Of a stretch of DNA of 64,000 nt, positions 40,501 to 64,000 are shown in pieces. A program made the translations under genes and the position numbers. The stretch is from positions 1 to 64,000 of the forward strand of contig JAIVFJ010000165.1 of assembly GCA_025765615.1 (NCBI GenBank). Direction: 5' to 3'. Numbering within the stretch: position 1 is the first letter of the stretch; every line of letters begins with the position of its first letter. The notes beneath the pieces were generated by a model that worked only from the letters and a program-made list of their open reading frames with translations, searched no databases and was not told the DNA's origin. Source of the DNA: Zopfochytrium polystomum. Its lineage: Eukaryota; Chytridiomycota; Chytridiomycetes; Chytridiales; Chytridiaceae.

Positions 40501-40920
40501 CCACATGCGGGACGCGTGGATGGGCATGAACTCGGGAATGATCCTGTGTGGGACGGGGACGGACGTCACGAGGGGCGGGCGAGAATGGGTGGATTGGTGA
40601 GTGTGGAACTGGCGCGCGCGCGCGTACAACACAGCACACACACCCACACACACATACACACACACACGCACACGCACATACGCACACACACACAAACTCA
40701 CCACAGCTCGGGCGGGATCGAATTGTTGCCGGCCCAGTCGTAGACGTTGAGCACGGCGAGCCAGAACTTGCCCCATGACGGGACACCCGTGGCGCCGCCG
40801 AGCTTGTGGAGCGTGGCGCGGGCCTTGACGCAGACGGGGTCGTCGGGCGGCACGCCGAGGAGGCGGAGCGCGACGTAGTTGAGCGCCGTGCCAAAGACGG
40901 TCGAGACGCCTTCGATGTGG
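37574..40920 (-). CDS. ERG7: Lanosterol synthase (oxidosqualene cyclase), 5' end missing
   Basis: Twelve exons: 40920-40702, 40543-40408, 40012-39904, 39730-39612, 39488-39391, 39284-39128, 39021-38609, 38541-38395, 38250-38175, 38101-37907, 37775-37763 (13 nt), 37656-37574. All junctions agree in phase; 587 residues. The enzyme cyclises 2,3-oxidosqualene to lanosterol in the ER/lipid droplet, a key step of sterol synthesis. The catalytic-acid motif DCTAE is in the 39021-38609 exon, and QW-type motifs ([22 protein letters not shown]) are present. The visible sequence starts at [15 protein letters not shown], near residue 140 of full-length ~730-residue enzymes, so about 145 N-terminal codons are absent. 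No exon matching them is seen in 40921-41460 or between 44.5 and 45 kb. Either the gene is truncated or its first exons lie beyond the neighbouring element. Confidence 0.93.
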
Positions 40921-41437
40921 CTTGCGGTGTTGGTGGTTGGGTTGGCAAACAAAATACAATTATCGCGGCCGAGGGGAGGGGCGAGGAAGGCGAGGGAAAA
41001 AAAAAAATTTGTCTTGTCTTCACCTCATGGGTTTGGGCCAAGGGAGTTGTGAAGGGCGTTACGGTAGTGTCAAGCGTCGAAGGGAGAAAGAAGGGAAGTA
41101 TCACTTCCAAGGTTTCCTGAGCGAACAAGAATAGGAGGAGGAGCTGTGGGAGCCGTAGTTTCAGTTTCAAGATCCTCCAGCGTCTGAGTTATGATGGGCG
41201 TTGGTCTGAGCGCAACAGGCAATCTGGTGCAATCACGATCGAGTAGGAGAGTTGACGAGGGTCAGATCAAGGTCAACGGCAAACAAAAGCGGGTGGACAT
41301 TGAGAGATAGTGAGCGGGATCGGGTTGGATCCACGAAAGGCAGGTGGTAATGCGAGAGGACACCAACCGGCGGCAGAGAGAGAGTGGATCTTGCTGGTGC
41401 AAACAAAATCAATTTTTCCAATGATTTTCCAATGATT
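40921..41437. other. Junction between ERG7 and the recombinase element
   Basis: Sequence where the missing first ERG7 exons are expected. No oxidosqualene-cyclase-like reading frame is visible in any frame on the minus strand. Confidence 0.5.
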
Positions 41438-41443
41438 TTTATT
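41438..41443 (-). terminator. Poly(A) signal of the recombinase gene
   Basis: Minus-strand AATAAA about 25 bp after the stop of the tyrosine recombinase gene. Confidence 0.5.
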
Positions 41444-41467
41444 CAAAAAAGCAAAATAAACATTGAA

Positions 41468-44400
41468 TCATGTCCTCTCAAAATCCACACGCTGCCGCTT
41501 TCCGCTGCTTCTCGTCGCTCGCTTCTCTTTGTCACACGTCTCCTTCTCGCCTGAACAACACAGCAACTTGAACTCAGAATGGGAGAAGTTCCCATTCGCC
41601 TCACCCTTGGATCCCCACTTTTGAACAAACTCCGCTGTATTGTCCTGGAAGTGATGTTTGAGGCACTTGAAAATGGGTATCACCTCGTTTCGCACAGAAG
41701 TGCGTACGGAGTCAATCAGTTCAGAAAGATCTGTTGGCAGTTGATCATACAGGCTCTGTATCAGCGCGAGTTTCTCAGCCCCTGTCTTCGCCTTCGACAG
41801 TCCCGATCTGCCAGGCAGATCGCAACCACCCCCACGTTTCCGCTTCCTTGTCGGAACTGAATCTGGTACAAAGGGCGGGACCGCAACAGAGATTGGGAAG
41901 TTGAGCGGGATCGCGACTGAAGGAGGTATCACTAAAGAACAAGATGCTTGGGCTGTGTTGTTTCCAACGGCAGCATTCTCAAAGACTGAGAGTCCTGAGC
42001 AGTCCGGCCTGAAAGACGAGGATGAGAGGGAGCGGGTAATTCCATCTAGTTGGGCATTGCTTGAAGTGAGCGAATCCATCATTGGCCCTGCTGCAACAGC
42101 TGTCACACCAACAGACTCCATCCCTTCCACAACTGACGTAGGTGCCACTGCTGTCATAATCGTACCAGCTTCTCTTATTGCGATTGGTGCTTGCGCTGGT
42201 TGCGACGTCAAGATAGATGGCGCTGGTGACAAAGCACTTCGAGCTTGAATGATTGCTCGTTGTAGTAGTGCTGCCAGTCTCTTTGCGGTTTCTGGGGCAA
42301 TGTTTTGCAACTCCCGCGTGATCTCGTCACCAACTGAAATAGGCTGCTTGTAATTTAATGCAGATTCGAGACAGTAAAGAATGCTCCGGTGCGGGTTGTT
42401 CAGGCTGATGCAGCAAAGCTCTACAAAAAAATAATAGGCTGCGGCAGAGAGATCCTGGTCGAAAGGGCGGCGTGCGTTTGCTCGTGGGACACGTTGGTAA
42501 TCATTTCGATTTGAATGCCATGTTGCAACCAGCGATCGCGTGTCCTCTCCTGTTCTTTTGGACAGTTCGAGAAGAAAAGCTGCGTCCTGCTTGTATTTCT
42601 TTGCGTCAATGTACGATTTATGGCGAGCGCAGTGCATGATTTCCGCTTCGCTGCCGCCTCCCCAAATTGCAAGAACATAGCCAGTCTTTCGGATTGAGTG
42701 GCTGCCAAATTTTCCTTCTCGCTTGATGACTTCAGCACAAAGGGTTTTGAAGTAATCCTGAAATGAGCTGTACGTTAAACAATCCTTTTCGGAGCAGTGC
42801 GACCCGCGATCACTACGCCTCAGGAATTCGGCCGAGGGAAAAAGGTGGCCGCTTTTGAGCCCTGACATGTGAATGTATAGTAATAGATGCCGAACAGGAC
42901 ATAGAGAGGGATTTTCGTGGTCAGCCCAGAGGATGAGATGGACAGGCTGATGGTCCTTTTTTCCCTTCACTTTGATGCAAAGACCCTCTATAAAATTGTC
43001 CTGAAATATAGTCAGGTCCCAATTGATGCAGTTGTAGTCGAGTTCCGAGCTAAACTGAAGATCAAGTAATTCTGCGCTCCGTAGAAACAGCTTTGCGCCA
43101 ATGAGAACCATTGTCCATATCATAAGCTCCCATAGACTATTCCCACTCAATAGCCGTCGCCGAACGTCGAGTAATTCCCATGGTGTTAGGCCAGTGTCAC
43201 CTTCAGCCACATAGGTTGCTGCAGCGTCTGAACTGTTGTGAAGAGCATCTCGAACGGTGGAGCAATGCAGTGGGTTTCCCATACGATAAAGCATAGGTCG
43301 AAATCGGTGAGCGTGGCAACCTGTGCTGGCGGCAGTCGTACTTGGCTCATGCTGGTGCACCGCTGGCAGTTCTGGTTCTTGCGTTGGTGGAGTTTCCAAG
43401 GCCTTGCACCGTGGGCAGTCTTCAAGAAATGGACCACCTTGATTGCGAGATCTGTGAATGCCGCTTATGACTGACACAAAGGAGTTTGCTGACATTGGGT
43501 CGTTCCAACCACCCTGGCACATAATTGGTTGGCCGTGAACGACGTCCACGATAGCTGTGCCGGCAGGGTCGAGGAGAGGAGTGTTTGGCGGAGATCTCTT
43601 GTATGTGATGAATGATGCTATAGTTTCAGGCTGCATTGATGGGCAGATAGGTGTCGGAGGCGATGCCAAAAGCATTAATAAACTCTCATGGTCGCCGATA
43701 AGAGCGCAAAAGTGTTGAAATCCTAAAAAACAAGGATCATTCGTCGCGTGCTCATCCATGCATCTCGCCACCTCAACAACACAGCCATCCTTCAACATGA
43801 GCGGGGGCTTGTCACAGTCTCTCCCAAAAAAAAACAAAAACAAAAATTTCTTAAAAAAAAAACTTGATCTCCTTACCTTTCATGTGCTTCCGATAGTTGC
43901 GAAGAGTATTTAAGGAGACGTCTTTTTGCCCGTGAAAGGGAACTTTCTTCGCGCCAGGTTCTAGCTGCAACCGCTTTAGTGCTTCTAAGATGCCTCCCTC
44001 CATCAGAGCTTCATATTCCGGCTTAATTCGAAAAGGATCTTTCGTGCCTGAAGAGTGCTTAGTTTTGGTGGTTTTAGGAATTCTCGATGAACTTGCAGCG
44101 GTGCTTTGGATTGGCTCCCTTCCCCCAAGGCTTGCTGTCAGAGCACCAATATGCGAGCTCCTCGCAACAGAGTTTGAAGAGTTCGGAGTGGGCGTGTTCA
44201 ACCTGTGCAAATCTGTAGTAGCTGGTGCTGCAGAACTGAGGCTTGCTACAACGACTTGAGGTGCTTCTACAATCAATTCAGAAGCGACTGTCACGTTTGT
44301 GGCTGCGGTCACAGATGGCACGTTGTCTAGTGTTGCTGTGAATAAATTCTTGTTGATGCGGAAATGACGTTGTGAATCAACTCACTTTCATTCAGAGTGC

Positions 44401-47484: not shown

Positions 47485-49762
47485 ATGATGGCAGTCAAAC
47501 AGCCTCACCTTCTCGTATTGTTTCTTTTCTTATTTGGGGCTGCCGCATCTGGCTCTTCCCCAGCTCCCCGTCCAAAACTACTCTCTGCACTCCTGACGGA
47601 CGTGGACGCGGAATCTTCCTCGTTCACAACTGTTGGTCATTCGTCCCTCTCGAGGCGCGTTCTTCCAGACGAATCTAATGTGCAGACAGGAAGCGGTTCC
47701 TCAACGCCAGCACCAGGTGGAGACGTTCAAGGAACAGGCGGGACCTCCACTACGAGCACCGGTGATGTCGAGGCGGGAACGAACTCTGCAAACAGCCAGG
47801 TTTGCATTGCCATCTTCACCCAGACTGCACTTTCTTAACACTCCACGCCCCCGCCCCCCCTTCTCCTTCCGGCACCTTCCCTCTTTCCCGTACCCCTATA
47901 TCCTACTTCGACGCAGGGTTCCCGGTCCATGATGGTAAGATGGCGTCACTGAGTGAAATTCTACTCGCCGAATCTGACGCAGCTTTTTTGTTAACCAACT
48001 GTAGCAAAGAATGGGGGTAGGTCCAGCTGATTCGCCTTCACCAGTGATCACCACTGAATGTGTCTTTGTCCACTTCAAACTTAGGATGCAGCTTACAACC
48101 GTCGTGAGTATGAGAGCCCCATAGATTCTCACGCCATTTCGTTTGAAAGTGGAAGTACAAAACACTTGTAACTTATTTTTCCAACTTGTTCTGTCCAGTT
48201 CGGCAACTCAGTGGTCGGTGGTATAAGTAACGCAGCCGAACGCCTTGTGACGAGCAGCGTGCAATCTTCCCTAAATGCGGCAGCGGAAGGCGTGGCGAGC
48301 GGAGGCATGCTGCCAGCAGGCTTGGGGTTTCTCGCCGGATGCGCTGGAGGAGCTTGCGGTGTTGGCCTCAGCGAAGGTGGGTCGCGCGGCGGTGGCTGGA
48401 GGACGAGCGGCCTTAAGTAGGTCCCCCCCCTCCTTTGGTTGCTTTTGTCATGTACAATCTGATGGTTCCACTTTTGTTTTGCCAGACGCTCCACCGGGGA
48501 AACGTCTTCCAGCTTTCGTGAAGAGAGCTAAAGAGCATATCACGAAAGACCCAGTTTCCTTGGCGGGAAAAGTAGTGACGGCTGTCGCCGCTAGCGCATT
48601 GATGCAAGGTAAACGTTGCTCTTTCGGGAAAGCCTTGCCGAATTCCAATCGTGTGATCCAGCGGGGGGGCAAGTCATTGCAGATTATGGGCCATATACCA
48701 ATACCGCGACTACAGTCGTCAAGTCAGCTGTAAACTCAGCTTTGGATGGAAACGGAAGAGCTCACGGTACGTTTCCGATTCCCATAACATTCCCGTAGAT
48801 ATTCACTCATACACACCCCCTGCTCTTCCCCTTCCTTCCTTCCCAGCAATCATGAACGGGTTGGCCGAAGCCGGAAATGCATATATTCAGGGAATTCAAC
48901 GTGAGTGTTAAATGGAAACCTTCTTTCAGGACTCTGTGATTACACAGGTAACACTTCAACAACAGCTAAGGACGACCCACTCGCCAATTCTGCCGGGAAA
49001 GAACTCGCTGGCGGCAGCTTCACCGGAGCCGTCGATGGAGCCGTGCAAGTGTGCCAAATGTTCAGTGATCTCAGCGCCCCGAAAACGCGACGCAGCGTGG
49101 CCAGCGGCTCTCTGTACCGTCGCGATAAAGGGTGTAAAAGGCCTTCAGCGGCGCCCAGAGGCAAATCAAAGGGGCCGGTTCCAGCGGCGGACGCGGCGAA
49201 AATCTTTGGCAAGAAAAACGCCAAGTCGAACTCGGCGAAGAGCGGCGGAGACGTCGGCGGCTTGGCCCGGGGTGCCGGGATGGCACGGTCGGCGGGCGCC
49301 AAGGCGAAGAAGAACGGTCGAGCCGGCTCCAGCGCATCGAAAAGGTCCCCGAGCGCATCATCAGGAAAACGTGGCGGCCCCGGCCGAAGCACCAAAGCTG
49401 CGTCGGCGTCGAAGCCTGCAAGCTCCCGGAAGGTCAAGAAAGCAGGAACGAATCAACTCATGATCAAGGGCAAGGGCTCAAAGCGTTCCATTGCGACTCC
49501 GGGTCCCAAAGCAGCGTCGTCGTCGCGGGGAGCCGGAGGCAAGGCGGGTGCCAGTGGGAAGTCTGTCAAGGCCGCCTCTCCGAGGAAAGCGGCTGCCAAG
49601 GCACCACCCCCTGCCACTAAGAAGTCACCTTCGGCCTTAAATAAGTCGACTGCACCCCCGAAGCAAGTGAAAGCGGTAGGGAAGCTTTCGAAGACGACGC
49701 CCACGCAAACGTTGGGAAAAACAAAGCCGTCGGCCCCCGCCAAGGGGAAGAGTAGGTCGTAG
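47485..49762 (+). CDS. Secreted protein with histone-H1-like basic tail
   Basis: Nine exons by splice consensus: 47485-47799, 47917-47934, 48005-48016, 48092-48103, 48199-48376, 48486-48608, 48662-48766, 48847-48900, 48930-49762; 549 residues. The three very small exons (18, 12, 12 nt) are the least sure. From exon 5 on, introns are all phase 1. Residues 1-24 are a signal peptide (VLFLFLFGAAASGS). The middle is an Ala/Gly/Val-rich region with few cysteines. From about residue 340 to the end the chain is a Lys/Ala/Ser/Pro/Gly tail very like linker-histone H1 (KAASPRKAAAKAPPPATKK). No globular H1 domain is present. The last ~160 codons are duplicated at the right edge of the window (63516-63998). 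A TATTTAAA box lies at 47360. Function unknown; a cationic secreted or granule protein is one possibility. Confidence 0.65.
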
Positions 49763-50948
49763 AGTCACGGACGCGACACCCATCGCATCCGTCGACAGGA
49801 GAAAGCAGCTCAGGTGGTTGTTTCGCTCGGACGGCAAAACGCCACTTGCATTCTTTTCACTCTTTTTTGTGTGCGTGTGTGTGTGTGTTTTGTAGAATAT
49901 CTCCAATGAGGGTGCGTGTTGCATTTGAGGTTGTGCAGTGGGGCACAGTGGTGGTGATCTTGACGTTTCGTTTGTTCTTCTTTTTGCGGTGACCTGCTTA
50001 TTGTGTCTCTGCGTGTATGCGCTTTTTTTTTTTTTTTTTTTTTTTTTTTTTGTTGGTTTTGTGGCACCTGGACGGTGGCACAGAACAGGAGGAAGCTGAA
50101 TAATGTTGTTAGCCCTTCTCGATGACGGGCGACGGATCGCCCAGCCGCGTCGGAGGACTAGGTAGCTGAAGAAACAAGCGTAACAAGCTTGCTGTTGCTG
50201 ATTATAGCCTGATTTTACGAAACTTTTTTTTCCAGAAGAGGCTCCTCTGGGCACCGTCAGCTTCACCAAGAAAAGATATTCCGCTTTCCTGCCAGGAAAA
50301 GCAGCAACTCATTCGTGCCGCCCCCCCACGAGCCAGGCATAGCTTTTCAATCCACAACCAAATAACTCGACGCGTAGGGAATAGTAGGACAAGCACGCGA
50401 CCGGCGTGCCCAGTCAATACCCTCTTGCGAAAAAAGTATCAGAGATGTCGACACACGCCCGGCGGCGGCGAGGCGCAACAGGCCCAAAAAAACCGCCCGT
50501 GGCGCGTCCGTATGTACCACCAGCGCGGGTGCAAGCCAGCGCCGCCGAATGTGGCTGGCAGCGTGAGGAAGGCAGGGAGGCGACTGCCAGCGAGTGTCAG
50601 GGGTGTTAGTATGGATGTGGGAGGGACCGGGATATATCAGATAGTTGTCTCACCCGTGGCCACTGCTTCTACGGTGCGGGGGTTGCTCTTTCTCTCTCTC
50701 CCCGCTCTCTCTTCCCCTCTCTGTTTGTCCGTGTGGCGCATCATTCAATCTCGGCTCGCGCTTTTCTTGCGTGCAGATGTTACGAAACGCGAAAAAGTTG
50801 GAAAGGAAAAATTTTCTGGTGGCACAAAAGCGCCCCTGCAAAAAAGCAATCGTGGGCTGAAAATGGGTGGAGGCAGTGCCACTGCTTCGGCCGGTTAGTC
50901 GGAAAAAGCACCAAGCACATGCAATATCATTTGGTGAGCGGCTGGTAG
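49763..50948. other. Intergenic part of the left arm
   Basis: No gene recognised. A poly-T run lies at about 50024-50050. The stretch is conserved, inverted, at about 62330-63515. Confidence 0.5.
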
Positions 50949-50955
50949 TATAAAA
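50949..50955 (+). promoter_or_regulatory. TATA box of the left modular gene
   Basis: TATAAAA, 92 bp before the ATG at 51041; conserved in the right copy at 62283-62289. Confidence 0.6.
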
Positions 50956-51040
50956 CGGGGGCGGCCGTCGGCAGGAAAGCCACCCCCAACCTCACACTCC
51001 CCGAACCCCCAAGAACTCAAGCCCAGGACCACATTGAAAC

Positions 51041-52580
51041 ATGATGAAGCTTGCCCTTCTTTTCCTCCTCGCGGCTGCCTCTGCGGCCGTCGCAACGGCT
51101 GTGCCCCTGCACGCGGCGGACGAGCTTGCAGATGTGGACGGGGGCAATCGTGGCGTGGCCCTGGCCAGACGTGGTGAGTGCCTTGGGCTAGGCAGCAGGG
51201 ATGTGTTCCCAATGAACCCACCTTCCAGGCCTGCGTTCGCCTGAACACGCGCACAATCTGTCTTTCACATACACGCATGCCACCTGTCACTGCATAGTCG
51301 TTTCTACCCCCACCCTCCCACCCCTGCCAACGATTCCCTCCCTCCTTCCGTCCCATCTGCTGTAATTTCCAGTCAGCCACTGCCAATCAATGGTCTGACT
51401 GAACAAACGTCATCCCACTACCACCCAAAATCCCAAATAAGACGGCGACACCCCGACGCTCGTCCCCGCGGCTATCAAGGGGCTGGCAGGCCCTACGTAT
51501 TCGGGCAGGCGGCACAGGAAGAAGACGGGCAACAACAGGGAAAGGCGGCGCAGGCGGCGGGAGCGAGAGTCGGCCGAGCGGATGCGGAGCGGTGAGTGTG
51601 GCCAACTGTTGCGTTCCTTCGTGGTAGAGGTTGGGCGATGGAGAGCGAAAACTAAGTCTTCCCTTTTTCGTTGTTCGCATCGCACACACATACACACGCA
51701 CACCTCACACATGCAGAGCTCGTTGACGCCGGGTACGCTGACGAGCTTGACGCCTTTGAAGACGACGCCGTGGACCCCCTGCCGGAGTCCGGCGGCACGG
51801 GCGAGACCGAGGCACCGCGCAAGCGGCACTATCGCCACCACCCGGGCAACAACCGACGCCGCAGGATGATTCGTCACCGGCACCGTGGCAGTGCCACGGC
51901 TCCGCGCATGAAGATGGCCGGTGAGAGTGGGCAACTGCTGCGTACCTGTGTGTGATGGGGGTGGAGAGGGGAGGGACTCTGGGGGTAGGGGCGAAATTAC
52001 GCTGTTCACTCTCAAATATGCATCGCACGCACCCACCCCTCAATTTTACAGAACTCGTCGATGCCGGGTACGCCGACGAGCTCGACCCCGAGACTTCGGA
52101 AGCGACGCCTTTGACGACGACGCCGTCGACCCACTTCCGGCGCTCCGCAGCGCAGACGAGGCCGTGGTCCCCCGCCGCAAGGGACACCATCGCCACCACA
52201 CAGCCGCCCCGGCAACGACCGACTCCGTTCGTTGATGCGTCACCGGCCGATGATCAAAATGGCCGCGAAAGAGGCGGGTGAGTATCGTGAATGTCGGGAG
52301 GCCTCGGATGAGGGTGCATAGTTCAAACATGACCTTTGCCCGACCTCACCTGCCGTCCTAAGTCGCGGTTCCGTTCACCAACCATGATTTCCATAATTTT
52401 CCATTGATTTGGACAGCTTTTGCCGACGACGAGGCCTTCTACGACGATCTTGTCGACGAGCTTCTCAATGGCGCGGAGTTTGAGGACGACGAGGTCGCGG
52501 GGGACGAGGTTGACGAGGATGGATTGGACGGTGAGGAGGTCGTTGATCTGGTCGTCGAGGATGCGTTTGACGGAGAGTAA
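51041..52580 (+). pseudogene. Secreted acidic/cationic modular protein, frameshifted left copy
   Basis: Exons 51041-51173, 51442-51591, 51717-51920, 52052-52277 and 52417-52580 match the intact right copy. Exon 1 encodes a signal peptide (KLALLFLLAAASAAVATA) and a short propeptide; exon 2 is Arg/Lys-rich. Exon 3 starts ELVDAGYADELDAFEDDAVD and ends in an RHH/RRRR-rich cationic stretch. Exon 4 begins with the same module but, relative to the right copy, has lost one T after its start and gained two bases before the RPGN region. It is therefore 226 instead of 225 nt, reads out of frame, and exon 5 would stop early instead of giving the acidic C-terminus. Splice sites and promoter look intact, so a shortened product is possible. 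Confidence 0.75.
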
Positions 52581-52653
52581 AACGTGGTGGCCACGCTGTT
52601 TTCCTCCGTCCCCTGTCTCATTTCTCTCTTTGTCGCGTTCTTTCTGAACACTG

Positions 52654-52659
52654 AATAAA
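52654..52659 (+). terminator. Poly(A) signal of the left modular gene
   Basis: AATAAA 74 bp after the terminal exon; the same sequence occurs inverted at 60703-60708. Confidence 0.55.
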
Positions 52660-52670
52660 AAGTTTCGTGG

Positions 52671-52755
52671 CTGTCTCTCTCTCTCTCTCCTCTCTCTCTC
52701 CCTCTTCCTCTCCTCTCTCTCTCTCTCTCTCATCCCTCTCTCTCTCTGTTTCTCT
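52671..52755. repeat. CT-rich microsatellite at the inner edge of the left arm
   Basis: Imperfect (CT)n of about 85 bp. The right arm's inner edge (about 60631-60688) carries the complementary (GA)n. Confidence 0.85.
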
Positions 52756-52983
52756 CCCCGTGTGGCGCAGATATTCAAGCAGCTCCTGCTCAGGGTTGTT
52801 ATTTGGACAGCCAAAGACAGTGCCTTTTTTTGTCCATTTTGGACAGTGTCCTTGCCTGGACAAAAAGGGGTCGGCTCTGTCTCTGGATCTGGTTCATTTT
52901 GGACTGTCCAAAATGCCGCCTTTTTTTGTTTTTGACTGAAAATAAATTTTTTTCGCTTTGGTTTGCAATCAACTGTAATTCGT

Positions 52984-54876
52984 TTATTTTCCTTCCCCTT
53001 CTTCCCCCAGCTGGCTCCAGTAATCCCCAAACACTTCCATTGAATAACCCAACAACTCGTTCTTAACAAAGGTGTAAAGCTCAGCTCCCTCAAGCTGAGC
53101 CATATTTGTAACAACAAAGACAACCTTTTCAATCACGTCGTCCCGAAGGCGATTGCGGGCATCAGTGTGGATGCGGGCAAACAAAGAGAAATTCCGTTCT
53201 GACGCAGCGCTTGAAGTTGTGATGGAGAATGCCTTCAGTGCAATCGGACGGAGTCTCGGGAATTCGGAACCTCGAGTGAGCCAAAACTCTGATGGCGACA
53301 GCTTCCTGTTTTCGATGTTTCCCCAATAGATTGGCTCGGTATTCTTGATACCATCACACCACAACGTGAATTTCCAATATTCTGCGCTGATTTCGCTTTT
53401 ATCTGTGTCAGTGCTTCCTAAGGCCGCCAGCTTTTCAACCGTCTCGCCTCTTTTGTCTGCAGAGAGGTGGAATCCATGGTGAACTGGGTCCAAGAGATAG
53501 GCAAAAGCATGCTCATCACGCCGCATAAACGCGAAGCGAGCTTCAACTTTTTTCAGCAGTGCGTCTATCATATCAGCGGGGAAGCCTTCTAGGCACCGAA
53601 ATTTGTCCTCAATTCTCCGGAATCCTGCATACACCTCCGAAGCAGGCAGACTGTTGCTTTGGAAGCGAACAAGCTGCTCGTCAATGGGCGTGAGAATGTC
53701 AATTGCCTTTCGTAAATGATCATCGAACTCTCGATTGCTCAGGATACTACATATGTACTGTCGATGTTCACGTTCCTTTAGCTGGCAGTCCAAGAAGTCA
53801 GGGCGAGATGCAGCGACTCGCATCAAAGGTAGAGCGTCGTGGACTGACTTTACAGACTTCAGATATGAAGTCCATCGTGTAGGAGCTGGCTGGACGAGCC
53901 ACTGCAAATTTGCCCACTTCATCTCTTGTCGAAGGTGGCCGCCAATAATTTGCTGATTGGAGAAGAAGACAACAAGAGTGTGGACGTGAGAGATGCAGTC
54001 CGATATATGAATAAGTGGCGAATTCTCGTCCTTGATAACGCAGATGTCCTTGGTGAGAAGATTCAGTCTGTGCGACACACAACCACCAGCAAATATTCCT
54101 GGTCTTTTTTTCTGAACGAAAGTCCATGCCTTCTTATTTGCGCTGGTATTGTCGGTTACAACACCACCAATGCTGCAAGTTGGTGCAACTTGATGGATGA
54201 CTTCTCAAATTTCGTCGGCAAGCTTCTCTGCCGGACGCGTCTCCCCACTTGAGTTTTTTGAAGTCCAGAAAAACGTATGAGGGCCAGAGACTATCATGTA
54301 GTCGGTGATCGGCTGCTTGTTGACGTTGGTGTAGGAGTCTGTAACAAGACAAGGTGGCTGCTGCAAGCGTCGGAGGGCTTTAGTCACGAGAGCTTTTGTG
54401 GAGTCAAAGATTTCGTCAAGGAGGCCGCCTGCAATGTACTGCCGAGATGGAAGAACGACCTTGGGATTCAACAATTGAATAGCCTGACGCAAATAGGGAT
54501 TCTCAACAAATTTGAAAGATGCGCCAGAAGTGTAAATCGCCATAGCAAGATAAAAGTTGAATGAACGCTTTTCATCATTTGACAATGCGCCTCTGCAGGA
54601 ACAACGATGCGTGGAACCACCCTGAGGTCGATAAAATGAGGGATGAAGCGAGGGATCCATGCTTTCCATCAGCGCTTGGAATTGAGGGCAGCGCTCAAGT
54701 AGATGTTTCTCCATGCGATCTGCCTTTCTGTGGTGATTGACCTCAGTTTGGCAAAGCTGACTGTGAGGACAACAGGCTGTCGAGCCTGTGACCTCAAATA
54801 AATTAAGTGTATACCCACTTTTTAACTGGTAATTGTGAGGATTACCACCCCGTCTCGACCTGCGTTTTGCTGGCAA
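52984..54876 (-). mobile_element. hAT-family transposase with one nonsense codon
   Basis: A single frame of 630 codons is interrupted once, by TGA at 54207-54205. The N-terminal part has a Cys/His cluster (ACCPHSQLC ... HLLERC), as in BED-type fingers, and a conserved segment (LVTDSYTNVNKQPITDYMIV). After the stop the same frame continues with VVTDNTSANKKAW and CVSHRLNLL, typical of the hAT catalytic domain. It ends in the dimerisation motif SSAASERNFSLFARIH with the following T/R/L residues. The start codon appears to be lost (TTG). With one stop and no start it is probably inactive, but recently so. Confidence 0.85.
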
Positions 54877-56900
54877 AACGTGACTAGGCTTGGATTCCTA
54901 CTCTCTTATTATTTATTGGGTTTCCATACGGCCTCCGACTGGCTCCATCTGTCTGCCTCTGAGCTCTACTATTATTATTTATTATTACTATTTATTATTG
55001 GCGATGTTGCAGACAGAAAGACTCAGTCTTGATTCTAATTGCTGATACAAGGCTCCCTTGCTCAGTGGTTAGAGCGCTCCCTTCAATTGGGAAGGTGCCA
55101 AGTTTGAGACATGCTAGTTGACAGACTGGGCAGAAATGCAAAGTCCTACTATGCCTGGCCAATGGCCCCTCACTTTTGGAAATGACTTAGGACTGAAACA
55201 CTTCTGTGGGAGAAGTGCTAAGCCCAGATGGACAGAGTTAACAAGATGATGGCAGAGCTAACAAGCCCTACCACCTGCTACCATGATGTAATACCTCATA
55301 AAAGGGTATGAGATCACAGGGTTTTTCTTTATCTATTCATTGGTGATTTTTACTTATTTTTCCAATTAGTAATTTATCCTGTTTTTCCTGTTTTTCCTGT
55401 TTTCTCTTTTATTTATTCCTTGTTGTCTCTGTCTGTGTCTTTTCTTTCTTGTGTGGCTGAGAGTGACTGTCTTCCTCTTTGCACCAACCAGCTCTCTCCA
55501 TCTCCTCCATCTTTCTTGGCAGCTGATGCCAAGAAATGCTCCATGATTTTCTGAGCTGTCTTCCTTGTTTGATGGCTCAGCCCCATTGTTTGGTGACTCA
55601 CTCCTCCTTTCTCTTCTTTGCTGTTTTATTTATTGTTTTGTTCTTTTGTATATGTTTTCCCCTCTTTTCCCTTCCTTCTTCCCTCACCCTGCTGATTCCA
55701 ACCCTTTCCTATTTAAGCAGCTGCCCCCCATCTTGTTGACTGTGAGAACCTGTGCCCGAAGTCCCTTGCCTGCCCTTTTCTTCCTGACTGTATGTAGAGC
55801 TGGGGGTGGCAGTCCCCCGGTGTGTGACAGGAGGTTGAAGTCCTCTTGGCCATGATGGCAGTGTGCTGGGTTCAAGCCCCAGTGCACCTCACCAATTCTG
55901 CATGCTGCTTAGATTGGACTGGGTAGGAGCCACTTGGTGATGGAAGGATAGAGGGTAAATCTGTGGTGGTGCCTCTAGGTTCCTGTCAATACATCTAGTC
56001 AAATCCAGGTCTCTCAAGGGGATATGAATGAGCTGTCTGGTCAGGTACTGCTGCAGGAATGGTCTCTCAGGTATGCCCCCATCTCCCTGGTTGTTGGCTC
56101 CTGTGGCCTCTGGTGGGCCTGGTCTTCACTGGGTTCAGACCCTCTTTCTCTCAGATTAATGCCTGTGATGTCATGGTGCCACATTTGGGTGAGGGAGTGG
56201 GTGTTAACCTTCCTTGCTTCTAAGATAGGGAATTCCTCTGGCTTGGTGAAGCAGATGTCTGTGTCCTAGTAGGATGAAGTAAGAAGAGTCCCACTGTCTC
56301 CCACCCCTGTGTGCCCCCTCCTTGGATTGAGTTGGAACTTCTCCTTGGAGTGAGACAAGTTGCGTCTGGTTCTGTTAAGTGGAAAACAGTTCTGATTTAA
56401 TTCAACAGACACCTCTGCACACTAACTGTTCCTTGTGTTTGCCCTCTGTGTCCAACCCCCTCCAACTTAGGGCTTGTCTTTGACAGAGAGGGAGCCTTGC
56501 TCCATGGTGGTGGCTCCAACAGACCAGGGTCTGGCCACTTTCCTCCCCACTCTCTTGTCTTCTTCAGTTGGATTGGAGTGCTGCACTTAGTGCCGCTCCC
56601 TGGAGCTTGCCGCATCTTGCACCTCCAGCATTGTTACCGGATTTCCCGGTCCCCTTTGGCTTTGGCTTTTGCCTCCCATTGGGCCCACTCTGTGTCATGG
56701 ACCAGAGAACTCTGCACATTCTTTGCTAGTGTGCCACCTTTTCACAGTTGCCTTTGGTCTGAGTGTGAGAGCCTTCTCTTTGTGTGTAATAAGAGAGTTT
56801 CTTTGTGTTTTTTGGGCTTCTTAAGACTCCAAATACACTGTCCTGTCTAGTGACCCCTAAACATCTCCTTTTTGCCCTTTTTCACTTTCAGGATTGGTAT
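54877..56900. other. Non-coding spacer with tRNA-like and AT-rich segments
   Basis: Lower GC than its surroundings, with T-rich runs near 55320-55430 and 55600-55680. A second tRNA-like piece at about 55821-55889 has a GGTTCAAGCCC box-B motif and a pairable acceptor stem, but no proper anticodon arm. No protein recognised. Confidence 0.4.
55051..55115 (+). repeat. tRNA-derived SINE-like head
   Basis: Contains an A-box-like CTCAGTGGTTAGAGCG, an anticodon-like hairpin (TCCC/GGGA around TTCAATT) and a degraded B box (AAGTTTGAGAC). The acceptor stem cannot pair, so it is not a working tRNA. The unrelated downstream body fits a SINE, but I cannot show other copies. Confidence 0.5.
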
Positions 56901-57563
56901 TTAGGCCATTGCTCTATTTGCCACCGATAGCCCAGGGTGAGGATTTAGAGAGCACAGTCTCACATGACACAGAGTGGATTGATGCTGTCGACACAAATCG
57001 CTATTGGATAAGTAGCTCCAGGCCTCTGTCACCCGTCTTCCTGGGCTCGACATTGTAGAAGTGCACCTCCTCTTCCGTGCACTGCTCGCATCTGTCGAAC
57101 TGGAGTCCCTGCCAATTGGGCGATCGTAAAGGCCGAGCTGGCTGGGCAATGATATTGAGTTGGAGTTGCTGCGTCCTGGACTGATGGCCAGTCCAGCAGA
57201 GAGGTTGGGGGCATGCTGCAGTTTACTATTGTGTGAGTTGGAAAAAGAATGCGTGGGATCTGAGCTGGGTTGCGTTGGTGTGGACAACGGCAATGGGATC
57301 GACTGTGCGCTGGGGACTGCCGATGGTAGGATGAACGATGAACTCGACTTGGTGCTTGAGAATGACTTTGGTATGGACGTTGGCGCAGCGATTCCCCCAA
57401 CCTCGTGCGTGGTGGCGGTGAAATGCTCAGCAAAGTTGTACTGCTGGTGGCATCTCTCCCGATCTGAAAACGATTGCTGTGAGCTAGAGAAAGCGATGAG
57501 ACGATCGCCTGCAGTTGTGATCATCGTCAAACTCACCACTGGTGCCTGCGAGAAACTCGACAT
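56901..57563 (-). CDS. Hypothetical Ser/Pro-rich protein
   Basis: A 220-codon open frame, with a Ser/Thr/Pro-rich centre and a basic patch (SSARKRRCTSTMSSPG). An overlapping frame (57533-57997) may be an upstream exon, joined by a GTGAGT donor near 57537. It lies in the hAT-containing spacer and could belong to that element. Not recognised. Confidence 0.3.
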   Translation of the reverse strand: MSSFSQAPVVSLTMITTAGDRLIAFSSSQQSFSDRERCHQQYNFAEHFTATTHEVGGIAAPTSIPKSFSSTKSSSSFILPSAVPSAQSIPLPLSTPTQPSSDPTHSFSNSHNSKLQHAPNLSAGLAISPGRSNSNSISLPSQLGLYDRPIGRDSSSTDASSARKRRCTSTMSSPGRRVTEAWSYLSNSDLCRQHQSTLCHVRLCSLNPHPGLSVANRAMA

Positions 57564-58213
57564 TCATTGCCTGGGAGCTGTTCAACTGGCTGTTTGTCAC
57601 ATCTTTTAACTGTGGTCGACCAGTTGGGACTGGCGTTGCTGTGGGATGGGGCAGCGCTGATGACATCCACGATTCCATTGGGAAGTATGGAAAAATATGT
57701 ATGGAAAAATATGCTCTGGGCCTGCACCATTGAACGATTGGGGCAAGGGCTTCTGAAGACTGAGGCATTGATGTTGCTGGGTGTGGACCTCTGTTTTTTG
57801 CAGTTTGAGCGATGAGCGATGGTCTTGCACCTCGCAGTGCACACACCTCTTATAATCGGATATCTGCTTTCCTTTTTGGGTGGGGCTGTCCAAAATGCTG
57901 TCCAAAATGACAACGGCATGGCAGACAATTGGACTGTCCATAAATTTTCCCAACGCTGCTCCTGCTTCTGCAAGAAAACCCCAAAACAGGGTGGCACAAA
58001 AGCAAGCGTGAATGTGAGCCTCCAAAAGGAAAAAAAGCGTTTTGAGAAGTGATTGAGGGCACAGCTGGGAAAAGCTCATGCACATGCGACTCAGTGGGAC
58101 GGGATGTGCGGATTCGCTCATGGGAGCTGCTGTCGGTCGGGGGCCTTCAACCGCCCCGTTCCTTCTCTCCACCAGTCCCGAAAGCACCCAAAGGCAAGAT
58201 CAGACTTTGAAAA
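57564..58213. other. Spacer with TGTCCAAAATG motifs
   Basis: Carries CTGTCCAAAATG twice at about 57885-57911 and TTGGACTGTCC at about 57929. Related motifs are at 52809-52915, on the other side of the hAT block. Confidence 0.5.
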
Positions 58214-60120
58214 ATGAAGCTCGCCCTTCTTGGACTCCTCGCAGCTGCCTCAACCGTCGTCGTAAGCGTAGTACCTCTGCATCCGGCGGATGACCGTGTG
58301 GGATCAACAGCGGCGGGCCCCCTGGCAAGTCGCGGTGAGCTCGTTTGGACAAGAACTGTACCCAACCACTTTCCCGGCCGATTCGTACCGGAGGACGAGC
58401 ACACTCACTCCCTCTTTCACTTACACGGTCATATACATCGGTCATTGTAGTCTCATAACCGTGGGATATGCACTTTCACTGAGCAGAAAGGGGAAAAAAG
58501 AGGAACGTCCCCAAACATTCCCACACCTTGTCCCGTTCCAACACAATGAAAACTCTGCTTCCAAAAGCCTTGCGTTGCTTGTGGCCACTGTGCTCGTGGC
58601 CGCCGCCCCGAGCAACGGAGGCCGCCGCGGCTGGAGAAAGCGTCCCAGGGTGCCTTGCTAGACAAGCATCGTATGTTTTGTGCGCATTTGGTTTTTCCAT
58701 GTGCTGCTTGAGTGAAGAAACTTACGGCCATCATGCATCCGTCTACCGGCACAGCGCTCGTGATACCCCTGCTGCGTCCTTTGTCGACAGCGAGGAGGTC
58801 GTAAACGGAGACGAGGCCGACGCCTTCGACGACATGGGGCTTGCCGGTGACGATGCTTTCGAGGAGGACGAGGCCGTGCATTCGGGCAAGGCCATCCTCG
58901 GATATGACGGTCATTCCCACGGCAACGCCCACGAGAGCTCTCACGGTCACTCTCACAGTCACTCCACGAGCCAGTCGCACGGTTATCCCCACGGCCACTC
59001 CCACGGCAGTCACTCCCACCACCACCACCCCCACTACCGCCATCATAAGCCCAAAGAGACAACAAACCCGTCTTCATACTCGTCGTCGGCCGGGAAGAAC
59101 GGTAAACAGGTTTGTTGAGGCTTGGACCCCCTCCACTCACCCACCTTTGATCACCACCGATTTCGAATACGTTCCCACACCTCATCCCGAAACCAGCACT
59201 TGTCGACTCGGACGAGGTTCTTTACGATGAGATTCAGGCGCTGTACGGCCAAAAGGCTACAGACGATGCCTTTGACGATGGCGCGGCCGCAGACGCCACG
59301 GTAGCAAGCGATGGCTTCATCCCCTCCCGAGGGCAGCGACTCCAGCGACGACGGGGTGGTAGCCACGGCCACTTCCATTCCATCGCGCGGCACTCCACCG
59401 AGCACAAGACGCAAGACGGGGTCGCTCACCTGCCCGCCAACTTGACGGCCGTGGGCCAAAACGGGAAACGCGCTTCTTCTTTAAGTCCTTTTTTTTTGGT
59501 TTTTCTGGCGGATGTTCTTGCAGCGCTGGTTGACTCTGACGAGGTCATCTACGAAGAGGCGCTTGACGAGCAGGACCTGGGCGATGACGCTGTCGACGAT
59601 GACGCGATCGTGGAGCCCTCGACGATGGGCACTGAGACTCTGGCTGGGGCCAGCCTGCATCACGATGGCAGGCGGCACCACTGGCACAGGACGACTGGAC
59701 AACCGGGAAAAAAGTCCTTTGCACAAGTGATAAATTTGATCGGCGCCAAGATTGCCTCTTCCCAGGTTGGACCTTCAGGTACGTGATTGTTGTAGCCCGT
59801 TGGAAAGTCATCGACTTTTGATTATCTCCCGTGGCATTTGCTGGATGAACTGTCTCGTCTGTCGCTCCTTCACCGCACCACACAACATATCGCGCTCTGC
59901 AGCTTTTGCGGATGCCGAAGCCTCCATGGACGGGCATTCCAATGAGCTCATTGGCGGTGGCGGACTCGAAAGCAACGACTTTGCCGACAGCGAGTTTGGT
60001 GATGACGGTCTAGACGAGGAGGAGGAGACGGCCGACCAGCTTGACGAGGACAGTTTCGACACCGATGAGGTTGACGAGGATGAGCTTGACGAGGACGAGG
60101 TGGAAGATTTGGAGGAGTGA
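58214..60120 (+). CDS. Secreted acidic/His-rich modular protein (spacer member)
   Basis: Exons 58214-58334, 58718-59101, 59197-59778 (the unspliced reading; see below) and 59903-60120; 434 residues. Exon 1 is a signal peptide (MKLALLGLLAAASTVVVS) very like the arm copies. Exon 2 has an acidic part (DEADAFDDMG, DDAFEEDEA) and then a His-rich part (HSHGNAHESSHGHSHSH and more, about 20 His in 50 residues), suggesting Zn/Cu/Ni binding. Exon 3 contains two modules, each starting ALVDSDEV. They were probably once separate exons: the expected donor after 59463 reads GGAAAC instead of GTAAAC, while the acceptor at 59523 survives. The 60-nt intron has no stop and is a multiple of three. The last exon is strongly acidic. 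All other junctions are phase 1. The exon 2 acceptor is the weakest call. Confidence 0.65.
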
Positions 60121-60690
60121 AGGGTGGGCGGCCAGCGCTGGTGGGATTTGTTGCGATTCATCCTGGCCTTTTTCCCTCTCATGTTTCCGCTTGCGCGTTT
60201 TTGTGTCGGGAAAATTCATATTCATTTCAAAAAGCGTCGCTCACTTGTTGCCAGGTTTGCTTTGAATTCTGCACATCGGCGGCGGTGCCCCATCATCGTA
60301 ATGTGAGCGGGAGCACCACTCACTGCCACGACCCCTCCTTGCTTCGGTTTGGAGGATGTCGCTGGATCTTGCGGGCTTTGTCTGTTCCTTGCTTGCTTTT
60401 TTCGTGACGGACGCGTCAGGCTTCGTTTTTGGAAATTTTAACCCAGTTGTCCCAGACTCGAGTGCTCCTCACGCTCACTGAAGTGCAATGTGCGTGCTAA
60501 ATAATAAACACTGCATGTAGCGGTCAAAGGTGCAAAGCATGTGCCGTATCTGATGACCTCCAAAAGCCCATACACTGTAACTTCGGTGGATCAAAAGCAA
60601 AAGATCCAGGCCGAATCCGTCCCCAATAGATGGATAGATAGAGAGAGAGAGAGAGAGGGAGAGAGAGAGAGGGAGAGAGAGAGAGAGACA
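60121..60690. other. Spacer up to the right-arm edge
   Basis: No gene recognised. It ends in a GA microsatellite (about 60631-60688) that abuts the right arm. Confidence 0.45.
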
Positions 60691-60781
60691 GCCACGAAAC
60701 TTTTTATTCAGTGTTCAGAAAGAACGCGACAAAGAGAGAAATGAGACAGGGGACGGAGGAAAACAGCGTGGCCACCACGTT

Positions 60782-62193
60782 TTACTCTCCGTCAAACGCA
60801 TCCTCGACGACCAGATCAACGACCTCCTCACCGTCCAATCCATCCTCGTCAACCTCGTCCCCCGCGACCTCGTCGTCCTCAAACTCCGCGCCATTGAGAA
60901 GCTCGTCGACAAGATCGTCGTAGAAGGCCTCGTCGTCGGCAAAAGCTGTCCAAATCAATGGAAAATTATGGAAATCATGGTTGGTGAACGGAACCGCGAC
61001 TTAGGACGGCAGGTGAGGTCGGGCAAAGGTCATGTTTGAACTATGCACCCTCATCCGAGGCCTCCCGACATTCACGATACTCACCCGCCTCTTTCGCGGC
61101 CATTTTGATCATCGGCCGGTGACGCATCAACGAACGGAGTCGGTCGTTGCCGGGGCGGCTGTGGTGGCGATGGTGTCCCTTGCGGCGGGGGACCACGGCC
61201 TCGTCTGCGCTGCGGGGCGCCGGAGGTGGGTCGACGGCGTCGTCGTCAAAGGCGTTGCTTCCGAAAGTCTGGGGGTCTAGCTCGTCGGCGTACCCGGCAT
61301 CGACGAGTTCTGTAAAATTGAGGGGTGGTGAGTGCGATGCGTATTTGAGAGCGAACAGCGTAATTTCGCCCCTACCCCAGAGTCCCTTCCCCCTCCGCCC
61401 CCCATCACACAGAGGTACGCTGCAGTTGCCCACTCTCACCGGCCATCTTCATGCGCGGAGCCGTGCTGCCACGGTGCCGGTGGCGAATCATCCTGCGGCG
61501 TCGGTTGTTGCCCGGGTGGTGGCGATAGTGCCGCTTGCGCGGTGCCTCGGTCTCGCCCGTGCCGCCGGACTCCGGCAGGGGGTCCGCGGCGTCGTCTTCA
61601 AAGGCGTCAAGCTCGTCAGCGTACCCGGCGTCGACGAGCTCTGCATGTGTGAGGTGTGCGTGTGTATGTGTGTGCGATGCGAACAACGAAAAAGGGAAGA
61701 TTTTCTTAGTTTTCGCTCTCCATCGCCCAACCTCTACCACGAAGGAACGCAACAGTTGCCACACTCACCGCTCCGCATCCGCTCGGCCGACTCTCGCTCC
61801 CGCCGCCTGCGCCGCCTTTCCCTGTTGTTGCCCATCTTCTTCCTGTGCCGCCTGCCCGAATACGTAGGGCCTACCAGCCCCTTGATAGCCGCAGGGACGA
61901 GCGTCGGGGTGTCGCCGTCTTATTTGGGATTTTGGGTGGTAGTGGGATGACGTTTGTTGGTGCAGTCAGATGATTGATTGGCAGTGGCTGACTGGAAATT
62001 ACAGCAGATGGGACGGAAGGAGGGAGGGAATCGTTGGCAGGGGTGGGAGGGTGCACTCACCACGTCTGGCCAGGGCCACGCCACGATTGCCCCCGTCCAC
62101 ATCTGCAAGCTCGTCCGCCGCGTGCAGGGGCACAGCCGTTGCGACGGCCGCAGAGGCAGCCGCGAGGAGGAAAAGAAGGGCAAACTTCATCAT
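60782..62193 (-). CDS. Secreted acidic/cationic modular protein, intact copy
   Basis: Exons 62193-62061, 61918-61769, 61640-61440, 61309-61085, 60945-60782; every junction is phase 1; 290 residues. Order: signal peptide (FALLFLLAAASAAVATA) and short propeptide; a Lys/Arg-rich exon (RRHRKKTGNNRERRRRRRE); module A (ELVDAGYADELDAFEDDAAD then RKRHYRHHPGNNRRRRMIRH); module B (ELVDAGYADELDPQTFGSNA then RRKGHHRHH); an acidic C-terminal exon (FADDEAFYDDLVDELLNG, then Glu/Asp-rich). Many di- and tetrabasic sites could be cut by Kex2-type proteases. One reading is a polyprotein whose acidic segments mask cationic His/Arg peptides. TATA box at 62283; poly(A) signal at 60703. I recognise no known family. 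Confidence 0.75.
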
Positions 62194-62282
62194 CTTTCAA
62201 TGTCAGGTCCTGGGCTTCAGTTCTTGGGGGTTCGGGAGTGTGAGGTTGCGGGGGTCGCTTTCTTGCCGACGGCCGCCCCCCA

Positions 62283-62289
62283 TTTTATA
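62283..62289 (-). promoter_or_regulatory. TATA box of the right modular gene
   Basis: Minus-strand TATAAAA 90 bp before the ATG pair at 62193. Confidence 0.6.
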
Positions 62290-63515
62290 CCACCAGCAAA
62301 CCCCCTCATCCCGCTCACCAAATGATACAGCATGTGCTTGGCGCTTTTCCGACTAACCGGCCAAAGCAGTGCCCCTGCCTCCACCCATTTTCAGCCCACG
62401 ATTGCTTTTTTGCAAGGGGCGTTTTGTGCCACCAAAAAATTTTTCCTTTATCAATTTTTTTCGCGTTTCTTCCCATCTGCACGCAAAAAAAAAGCGCGAG
62501 CTGAGATTGAATGATGCGCCACACGGACAAACAAAGAGGGGAAGAGAGAGGGGGGAGAGAGAGAAAGAGCAACCCCCGCACCGTAGAAGCTGTGGCCACG
62601 GGTGAGACAACTATCTGATATATCCCTGTCCCCACCACATCCATACAAGCTGCAACACCCCTGACACTTGCTGGCAGTCGCCTCCCTGCCTTCCTCGCGC
62701 TGCCAGCCATATTCGGCGGCGCTGGCTTGCACCCGCGCTGGTGGGACATCCCGACGCACCACGGGCGGTTTTTTGGGCCTGTTGCGCCTCGCCGCCGCCG
62801 GGCGTGTATCGACATCTCTGATCCTTTTTCCCCAAAGGTCTATGACTGGGCACGCCGGTCGCGTGTTTGTTCTACTATTCTCTACGCGTCGCGTTATTTC
62901 GTCGTGGATAGAAAAGCTATGCCTGGCACGTGGGGGGCGGCACGAATGAGTTGCTGCTTTTCCTGGCAGGAAAGCGGAATATCTTTTCTTGGTGAAGCTG
63001 ACTGTGCCCAGAGGAGCCTCTTCTGGAAAAAAAAGTTTCGTAAAATCAGGCTATAATCAGCAACAGCAAGCTTGTTACGCTTGTTTCGTCCGCTAGCTAG
63101 TCAGTCCCCCCGACGCGGCTGGGCGATCCGTCGCCCGTCATCGAGAAGGGCTAACGACATCAATCACTTTTCTCCTGTTCCGTGCCACCGTCCAGGTACC
63201 ACAAAAGCTGTTTGTCGGATCCAAAAAAAAAAAAAAAAAAAAAAATTGCGCACGAACACGCAGAGACACAAATAGGCAGGTCACCGCAAAAAGAAGAACA
63301 AAAGAAGAAGACAAACGAAACGTCAAGATCACCCCCACTGTGCCCCACTGCACAACCTCAAATGCAACACGCACCCTCATTGGGAATATTCTACAAAACA
63401 CACACACACACACACAAAAAAAAGAGTAAAATGCAAGTGGCGTTTTGCCCTGTGAAACAACCACCTGAGCTGCTTTCTCCTGTCGACGGATGCGATGGGT
63501 GTCGCGTCTCTGACT
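62290..63515. other. Intergenic part of the right arm
   Basis: Inverted counterpart of 49763-50948, including a poly-A run at 63222-63245. No gene recognised. Confidence 0.5.
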
Positions 63516-63998
63516 CTAGGACCTACTCTTCCCCTTGGCGGGGGCCGGCGGCTTTGTTTTTCCCAACGTTTGCGCGGGCGTCGCCTTCGAAAGCTTCCCT
63601 ACCGCTTTCAATTGCTTCGGGGGTGCAGTCGACTTATTTGAGGCCGAAGGTGACTTCTTAGTGGCAGGGGGTGGTGCCTTGGCAGCCGCTTTCCTCGGAG
63701 AGGCGGCTTTGACGGACTTGCCACCGGCACCCGCCTTGTCTCCGGCTCCCCGCGACGACGACGCTGCTTTGGGACCCGGAGTCGCAATGGAACGCTTTGA
63801 GCCCTTGCCCTTGATCATGAGTTGATTCGTTCCTGCCTTCTTGACCTTCGGGGAGCTTGCAGGCTTCGACGCCGTCGCAGCTTTGGTGCTTCGGCCGGGG
63901 CCGCCACGTTTTCCTGATGATGCGCTCGGGGACCTTTTCGATGCGCTGGAGTTGGCTCGACCGTTCTTTTTCGCCTTGGCGCCCGCCGACCGTGCCAT
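63516..63998 (-). CDS. Histone-H1-like basic tail, right-arm copy (partial)
   Basis: The frame runs off the window. The visible 160 codons match the C-terminus of the 47485-49762 gene with a handful of substitutions and no frameshift (same KAASPRKAAAKAPPPATKK core, same stop position). This keeps the tail open in both arms. Confidence 0.75.
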   Translation of the reverse strand: MARSAGAKAKKNGRANSSASKRSPSASSGKRGGPGRSTKAATASKPASSPKVKKAGTNQLMIKGKGSKRSIATPGPKAASSSRGAGDKAGAGGKSVKAASPRKAAAKAPPPATKKSPSASNKSTAPPKQLKAVGKLSKATPAQTLGKTKPPAPAKGKSRS

Positions 63999-64000
63999 CC

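Follow-up and report, generated by a model that had tools for sequence, protein, structure and literature searches.

The first 64,000 nucleotides of contig JAIVFJ010000165.1 of the chytrid Zopfochytrium polystomum, of the order Chytridiales (hereafter the window, which is the start of contig C165 in an assembly of 80.16 Mb and 761 contigs) carry genes for secreted-looking proteins in which acidic and cationic segments alternate. The first-pass annotation had read three of them, genes 1, 2 and 3, as members of one family with a near-identical signal peptide followed by exons that start and end in phase 1. We spliced these genes from the sequence and compared them with their copies elsewhere in the genome. 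Genes 1 and 3 are both copies of one gene, named gene A, and the features of the family in the window are as follows.

60782..62193, minus strand: gene 3, the right-arm copy of gene A, with exons 62193-62061, 61918-61769, 61640-61440, 61309-61085 and 60945-60782
61440..61640, minus strand: module exon 1 of gene A, an acidic part, PRKR, then an Arg/His-rich cationic part
61085..61309, minus strand: module exon 2 of gene A, an acidic part, PRRK, then an Arg/His-rich cationic part
60782..60945, minus strand: acidic last exon of gene A, resembling the last exon of a distant paralog, B (match on contig C343, E = 2.2e-4)
51041..52580, plus strand: gene 1, the left-arm copy of gene A, with exons 51041-51173, 51442-51591, 51717-51920, 52052-52277 and 52417-52580
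49278..52690, no strand: left arm of an inverted duplication, with gene A (extent within the window), 17 inverted pairs
60672..64000, no strand: right arm of the inverted duplication, which extends past the window end
58214..58334, plus strand: A-type signal-peptide exon MKLALLGLLAAAS ahead of gene 2
58546..60120, plus strand: body of gene 2, with a remnant of its own signal exon carrying indels, three acidic-cationic modules and the acidic last exon 59903-60120

The five exons of gene 3 (133, 150, 201, 225 and 164 nucleotides) joined into a single open frame of 290 amino acids, identical letter for letter with the public model DFJ73DRAFT_861224, and all four introns were GT..AG introns in phase 1. 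The gene A protein (P0001) begins with what by eye is a signal peptide, and continues with a purely cationic exon, two acid-to-base modules and an acidic last exon. The two modules are 64% identical and both open with ELVDA, and the cationic exon has no LVD opening. The last exon had been described as purely acidic, and this was borne out, since it contains no Lys or Arg and has a net charge of −25.

Genes 1 and 3 were found to be the arms of one inverted duplication, 97.56% identical over 1642 columns, and an inverted-repeat scan returned 17 pairs, 87–100% complementary, between 49.28–52.69 kb and 60.67–64.00 kb. The idea that the window holds three members of independent origin was therefore rejected: the architecture of gene 3 stood, but genes 1 and 3 represent a single duplication and gene 2 a rearranged copy. 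An ankyrin-repeat gene at 45.0–46.4 kb (Pfam Ank, E = 9.5e-55) lies inside the duplicated block, and the right arm continues past the window with copies of a basic gene (C165:63519-64325, minus strand) and of the ankyrin gene (C165:66485-67870, minus strand). The palindrome (C165:45000-67870), in which the ankyrin gene, the Lys/Ala/Ser-rich basic gene and gene A are duplicated around a single gene 2, is also present on contig C42 (C42:12876-29370). This second locus has two gene-A copies with gene 2 in the centre, and the hAT-type transposon that lies in the spacer of the window palindrome was not found in it; its left copy of the basic gene is a partial match only, with stops. The end of a further contig (C181:120000-132203) matches the left half of the window locus at 99.5%. 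It differs by numerous small indels, several of them at homopolymers, and is probably a redundant, unpolished contig end.

Five gene-A copies were found in the assembly, three of which (window gene 3 and the left and right copies on C42) are open over 290 codons, although the first of the two start-like ATG codons reads GTG in the C42 right copy. Gene 1 and the C181 copy are not open. Exon 4 of gene 1 is 226 nucleotides long against 225 in gene 3, which puts the last exon out of frame as assembled, and the annotated model of gene 1 (P0002, 254 amino acids) has exon boundaries different from the spliced ones. Gene 1 and the C181 copy, although 99.1% identical, differ in their indels. Those of gene 1 are absent from C181, which carries others, several of them at homopolymers, so that a consensus error in gene 1 is possible; gene 1 as a true pseudogene was not adopted, as its indels are not common to C181. 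A TATAAA box was present 92–97 bp upstream of all five starts surveyed, namely those of the four gene-A copies other than that on C181 (−96 at gene 3 and −92 at gene 1) and of the C42 gene 2 (−93). The window gene 2 is without it.

The window gene 2 is homologous to the C42 gene 2, and their shared sequence starts only at ~58462. The signal exon of the C42 gene is another one, MKTLLLEGLALL.. (C42:19710-19857); it is followed by three modules and a last exon that reaches to 21316, and in our splice all four introns of this gene are in phase 1. This last exon carries a frameshift, and the public model (P0005) departs from our splice at two splice choices. Modules 2 and 3 of gene 2 open with ALVDS; module 1, which holds a His-rich stretch with 21 His residues, opens otherwise in a manner that depends on the acceptor. 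The (A/E)LVD(A/S) opening claimed for the module exons was thus confirmed for both gene-A modules and for modules 2 and 3 of gene 2, but not for module 1 of gene 2 or the cationic exon of gene A.

The window copy of gene 2 is annotated as DFJ73DRAFT_902787 (420 amino acids), a model with splices unlike those of the C42 gene. In module 1 of this copy a one-base difference puts the frame out when the C42 acceptor is used, a second candidate acceptor for exon 2 leaves the exon open but makes it much longer, and a deletion removes the donor after module 2. The A-type signal exon at 58214-58334 is 66% identical to that of gene A over 29 amino acids, short of the near-identity first described for the signal peptides, and its DNA was not found at the C42 counterpart locus. 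No TATA-like site was found in the 160 bp upstream of this exon, and a genome search with the surrounding DNA gave no second copy except for the first 99–105 bases of the query, a repeat adjoining the transposon, a result that does not in itself prove uniqueness. The presence of an MKLALL exon ahead of window gene 2 fits exon shuffling, but may simply mark a decayed copy. We read window gene 2 from its sequence as a rearranged copy, possibly dead or chimeric, and therefore the description of the family rests on gene A, the C42 gene 2 and paralog B. Likewise, phase-1 exons in all three window genes were upheld for gene 3 (four of four introns), but exon 4 of gene 1 is frameshifted and a donor of window gene 2 is deleted.

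A genome search with gene 3 gave weak last-exon matches on C343 (E = 2.2e-4), C7 (0.00335), C192 and C381 (0.0189 each). All four were found to be one type of gene, paralog B, located downstream of an HPPD gene, as identified by an exon piece common to C343 and C7 that scores 307.4 bits in NCBIfam 4HPPD, above the cut-off of 277. Paralog B has exons of 139, 9, 207 or 198, and 155 nucleotides with all three introns in phase 1 in each copy, and its frame is open in four of four copies. Our splice of the C7 copy, including the micro-exon of nine nucleotides, is the public model DFJ73DRAFT_811218 (169 amino acids). The central exon reads ETPRRKR-GRIHRAFGNMKRKFRDAFGKLKKLAGRRYRKNK.., and the last exon has AFGDDEAFYDEVADE.. 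where gene A has AFADDEAFYDDLVDE... Between the C7 and C192 copies we counted 27 differences in 498 exon positions plus 15 gap columns, and 37 in 301 intron positions plus 50 gap columns. The proportions of nonsynonymous and synonymous differences (pN and pS) were 0.050 and 0.070 respectively, and thus constraint on the B protein sequence is weak.

Because paralog B, distant as it is, keeps phase 1 throughout, the exon layout belongs to the family as a whole. Phase 1 was observed in 11 of 11 introns across three different genes (four in gene A, four in the C42 gene 2 and three in B), a count made without a genome-wide phase background and over junctions that are partly homologous and hence not independent. 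Symmetric exons of a single phase, as in exon-shuffled modular proteins, are therefore common to gene A, the C42 gene 2 and B, and to this extent the layout does suit module shuffling, as had been proposed.

Net charges alternate along the proteins, +10/−12/+13/−10/+9/−25 in gene A and −4/+16/−28 in B, and for P0001, P0004 (the B protein) and P0005 alike, 0 of 2000 shuffles matched the observed charge segregation. By eye, gene A, gene 2 and B all have hydrophobic N-termini, which are putative signal peptides. The mature parts of P0001, P0004 and P0005 contain no Cys (two are present in P0006, the automated model of window gene 2), and the mature His counts are 35 in P0005, 12 in P0001 and two in B. 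For the cationic exon of B, the best 18-mer had a moment of 0.63 and a charge of +6 (LL-37 as a yardstick, 0.78). None of 2000 shuffles of the whole exon reached this moment; however, this control is too lenient because the exon has a non-helical tail, and when only the cationic part was shuffled, as the stricter control, four (C7) and eight (C192) of 2000 did so. Single-sequence AlphaFold2 modelling predicted a helix at residues 52–94 of B, with block values of the predicted local distance difference test (pLDDT) of 77–92 over residues 51–90, and a confident helix at residues 67–112 of P0001, which spans the border between the Arg/Glu-rich exon and acidic module 1. Both models are largely of low confidence (mean pLDDT 66.5 for B and 56.6 for P0001), and for charged helices modelling from a single sequence is weak evidence.

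A P[KR][KR][KR] cluster is located at the acid-to-base junction of gene-A modules 1 and 2 and of B. The chance of such a placement was 0.03, 0.03 and 0.17 per module, and all three together occurred in 0 of 5000 shuffles, where the product predicts about 0.7 in 5000 and modules 1 and 2 are related. The genome contains three matches above the cut-off to the Kex2-type P domain, two of which have in-frame stops in the six-frame reading.

No family passed the Pfam cut-off for P0001, P0004 or P0005, neither cathelin nor any other recognised Pfam domain, in agreement with the earlier statement that no described family with this architecture could be recognised. The same was true of NCBIfam, where P0005 had one match of 14.2 bits (E = 0.0051) against a cut-off of 650. 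Protein searches returned no relative outside Z. polystomum at E<=0.001 or E<=1, with a limited sensitivity: two of them scored only the candidates sharing most words (7993 and 7994), so that distant relatives may escape, and one did not return P0004 although it was part of the query. A search against solved structures gave only two matches each for P0004 (E 0.71 and 1.8) and P0001 (E 0.13 and 1.2). Further weak matches in the genome itself, on C16, C19, C9, C81, C594 and C293, were rejected as low-complexity or stop-containing only, those on C9, C81, C594 and C293 being judged on the best five of 47, 21, 104 and 183 matches respectively; C110, C64 and C59 lay outside this survey. The family is small and appears to be lineage-specific.

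Amphibian skin antimicrobial peptide precursors consist of a signal peptide, an acidic propiece, a basic cut site and a cationic amphipathic helix. Paralog B differs from them in having the cationic part before the acidic part, save for a short EDD exon, and no relative outside the chytrid appeared in the searches made. A net positive amphipathic helix, as in cationic amphipathic helical antimicrobial peptides, was predicted in B only and not in the six gene A and gene 2 parts. The absence of Cys from mature P0001, P0004 and P0005 disfavours the disulphide-stabilised classes (fungal AFPs, defensins and thionins).

Among fungal precursors, the Kex2-processed repeat proteins (KEPs) are reported in Chytridiomycota too (PMC6339444, PMC7329392), and the present family resembles them as precursors with a signal peptide, here putative, and KR/RR sites. 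KEPs are defined by at least four fragments from KR/RR cutting with the C-terminal part excluded (PMC6339444), and by at least three near-identical repeated motifs separated by KEX2 sites (PMC6339444, PMC7329392). In-silico cutting at KR/RR gave six fragments for P0001, five for P0005 and four for P0004 (fragments of at least two residues counted, signal lengths of 20–21 assumed). However, the fragments are not repeats of one another, gene A having two modules and B none, and the sites in gene 2 do not separate all three modules, so that the family departs from the repeat rule as given there.

Plant thionins and class II defensins are described as a signal peptide, a cationic peptide and a C-terminal acidic domain, and the defensin NaD1 expressed without its acidic part was phytotoxic to cotton (PMC4695807, PMC3922462). 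Plants offer precedents both for protection of the producing cell by an acidic part at the C-terminus and for several peptides per precursor (PMC3922462, PMC4695807). Paralog B has the same order, a cationic exon (+16) followed by an acidic exon (−28), but the plant peptides are cysteine-rich, whereas mature P0001, P0004 and P0005 are Cys-free and without a Pfam match. Ib-AMPs and shepherins provide multiple basic or Gly/His-rich antimicrobial peptides per transcript or precursor (PMC4695807), as gene A and gene 2 would with their modules; they are, however, plant peptides, the Ib-AMPs with disulphides, and the likeness is one of description only. A shielded secreted peptide precursor is of a known kind; neither this family nor a cysteine-free, acid-shielded, exon-modular class built as a kit of phase-1 exons was met in the literature searched, papers naming the organism included, which consisted mostly of titles and the starts of abstracts.

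The remaining features lie beside the family. The spacer of the window palindrome is occupied by the following element.

~52747..57958, minus strand: hAT-type transposon (Dimer_Tnp_hAT, E = 1.1e-12; ends approximate)

This transposon is not part of the gene family. Its transposase DNA had seven further matches at 98%, one of them on the redundant contig C181, which indicates recent hAT activity. The gene at 47485-49762 encodes a secreted-looking protein with an apparent signal peptide of its own and a long Lys/Ala/Ser-rich tail resembling that of histone H1. By eye it has no module of the acidic-cationic family; its last exon matched no Pfam family, and the matches of this exon lie at this locus on C165, C181 and C42. 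At lower coordinates we noted, by eye, a recombinase-like reading region (41400-43700) and a minus-strand candidate for a terpene cyclase resembling lanosterol synthase (37560-40980).

We propose, with a probability of roughly 45%, that the family consists of acid-shielded, Kex2-processed, cysteine-free secreted preproproteins that free cationic peptides, probably of an antimicrobial type. Each gene has an exon for the putative signal peptide, at least one interchangeable phase-1 exon for an acidic segment, a cationic segment or both, and a last exon that is purely acidic. During transit through the secretory pathway the acidic pieces would probably neutralise the cationic ones, and a Kex2/furin-type protease would cut the basic cluster at the acid-to-base turn (APRKR/H, VPRRK/G and TPRRKR/G), freeing the cationic peptides. 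In B, the simplest member, the freed peptide would be a cationic helix, amphipathic and of antimicrobial type, and the gene A and gene 2 peptides would be Arg/His-rich. A wider proposal, which we regard as doubtful, is that of a chytrid-specific exon-shuffling system in which phase-1 exons with acid-shielded peptides recombine, duplicate and swap signal exons, and so diversify a cysteine-free antimicrobial arsenal.

Several observations weigh against these proposals. The analogy with antimicrobial precursors, already drawn by the first-pass annotation, is favoured by the amphipathic cationic part of B, but none of the six cationic parts from gene A and the C42 gene 2 is amphipathic (962, 1612, 406, 1833, 1000 and 199 of 2000 shuffles reached the observed moment). 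The segment charges sum to −15 and −16, and to −21 for gene 2 excluding its last exon; since these sums are net acidic, shielding would be in excess. Dibasic sites are expected anyway in Arg-rich stretches, module 1 of gene 2 lacks a dibasic junction and its His-rich part has a charge of only +2, and the predicted helix 67–112 of P0001 would suit a charged helix that stays whole better than a site of cleavage. The gene-A copies are too similar for pN/pS to judge selection (0.0083/0.0168, 0.0144/0.0215 and 0.006/0.0048 in three copy pairs, with few changes), and the high amino-acid divergence of B fits relaxed as well as diversifying selection. Paralog B also lacks TATAAA, having TATTTAA at −72 in C7 and TATTGAA at −71 in C192, and between-gene exon shuffling was not demonstrated, for all that the layout would suit it.

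The strong charge segregation and the Cys-free mature parts of P0001, P0004 and P0005 could also be those of secreted polyampholytes that stay uncut, the segments of which pair mutually or with wall polymers as a coacervate-like adhesive, a cyst coat or a sporangial wall matrix. The mostly low-confidence AlphaFold2 models are consistent with this, as are the predicted P0001 helix, which would span both an Arg/Glu-rich and an acidic stretch, and the very basic Lys/Ala/Ser-rich neighbour protein with an apparent signal peptide in the same duplicated block. However, a coacervate has no need of the amphipathic cationic part seen in B, and the basic cluster of gene A and B is placed where acid turns to base; we consider this explanation rather unlikely. 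The frameshifts in gene 1, the C181 copy and both copies of gene 2 raise another question, whether this is a fast-evolving orphan family without present function, largely decayed, in which open frames persist through recent duplication. The lack of relatives beyond the species, in protein searches of limited sensitivity, agrees with it. Against it stand the open frame of B in four of four copies, with exons less diverged than introns, and that of gene A in three of five, and several of the indels are of homopolymer type and not common to overlapping contigs. Such a decay is, in our view, distinctly unlikely.

Less probable again are secreted metal-handling proteins, in which His-rich parts and acidic residues would bind zinc, copper or nickel extracellularly. 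Only the His-rich parts of gene 2 point to the metal binding that the first-pass annotation had considered. Mature P0005 has 35 His residues and P0001 has 12, the His-rich part of module 1 of gene 2 holds 21, and a sub-threshold Pfam ZIP match falls on this stretch of P0005 (E = 0.2). With 11.3 bits this match is far below the cut-off of 35.1, the proteins have no Cys, and His is not a feature of the family, since mature B has so little of it.

If the reading of the family as shielded, Kex2-cut precursors is true, the helix of B would be a directly testable peptide from an early-diverging fungus. The family as a whole would then be a clean case, outside animals, of symmetric-phase exon modules building a family of secreted precursors, with palindromic duplication as a means of multiplying such genes.

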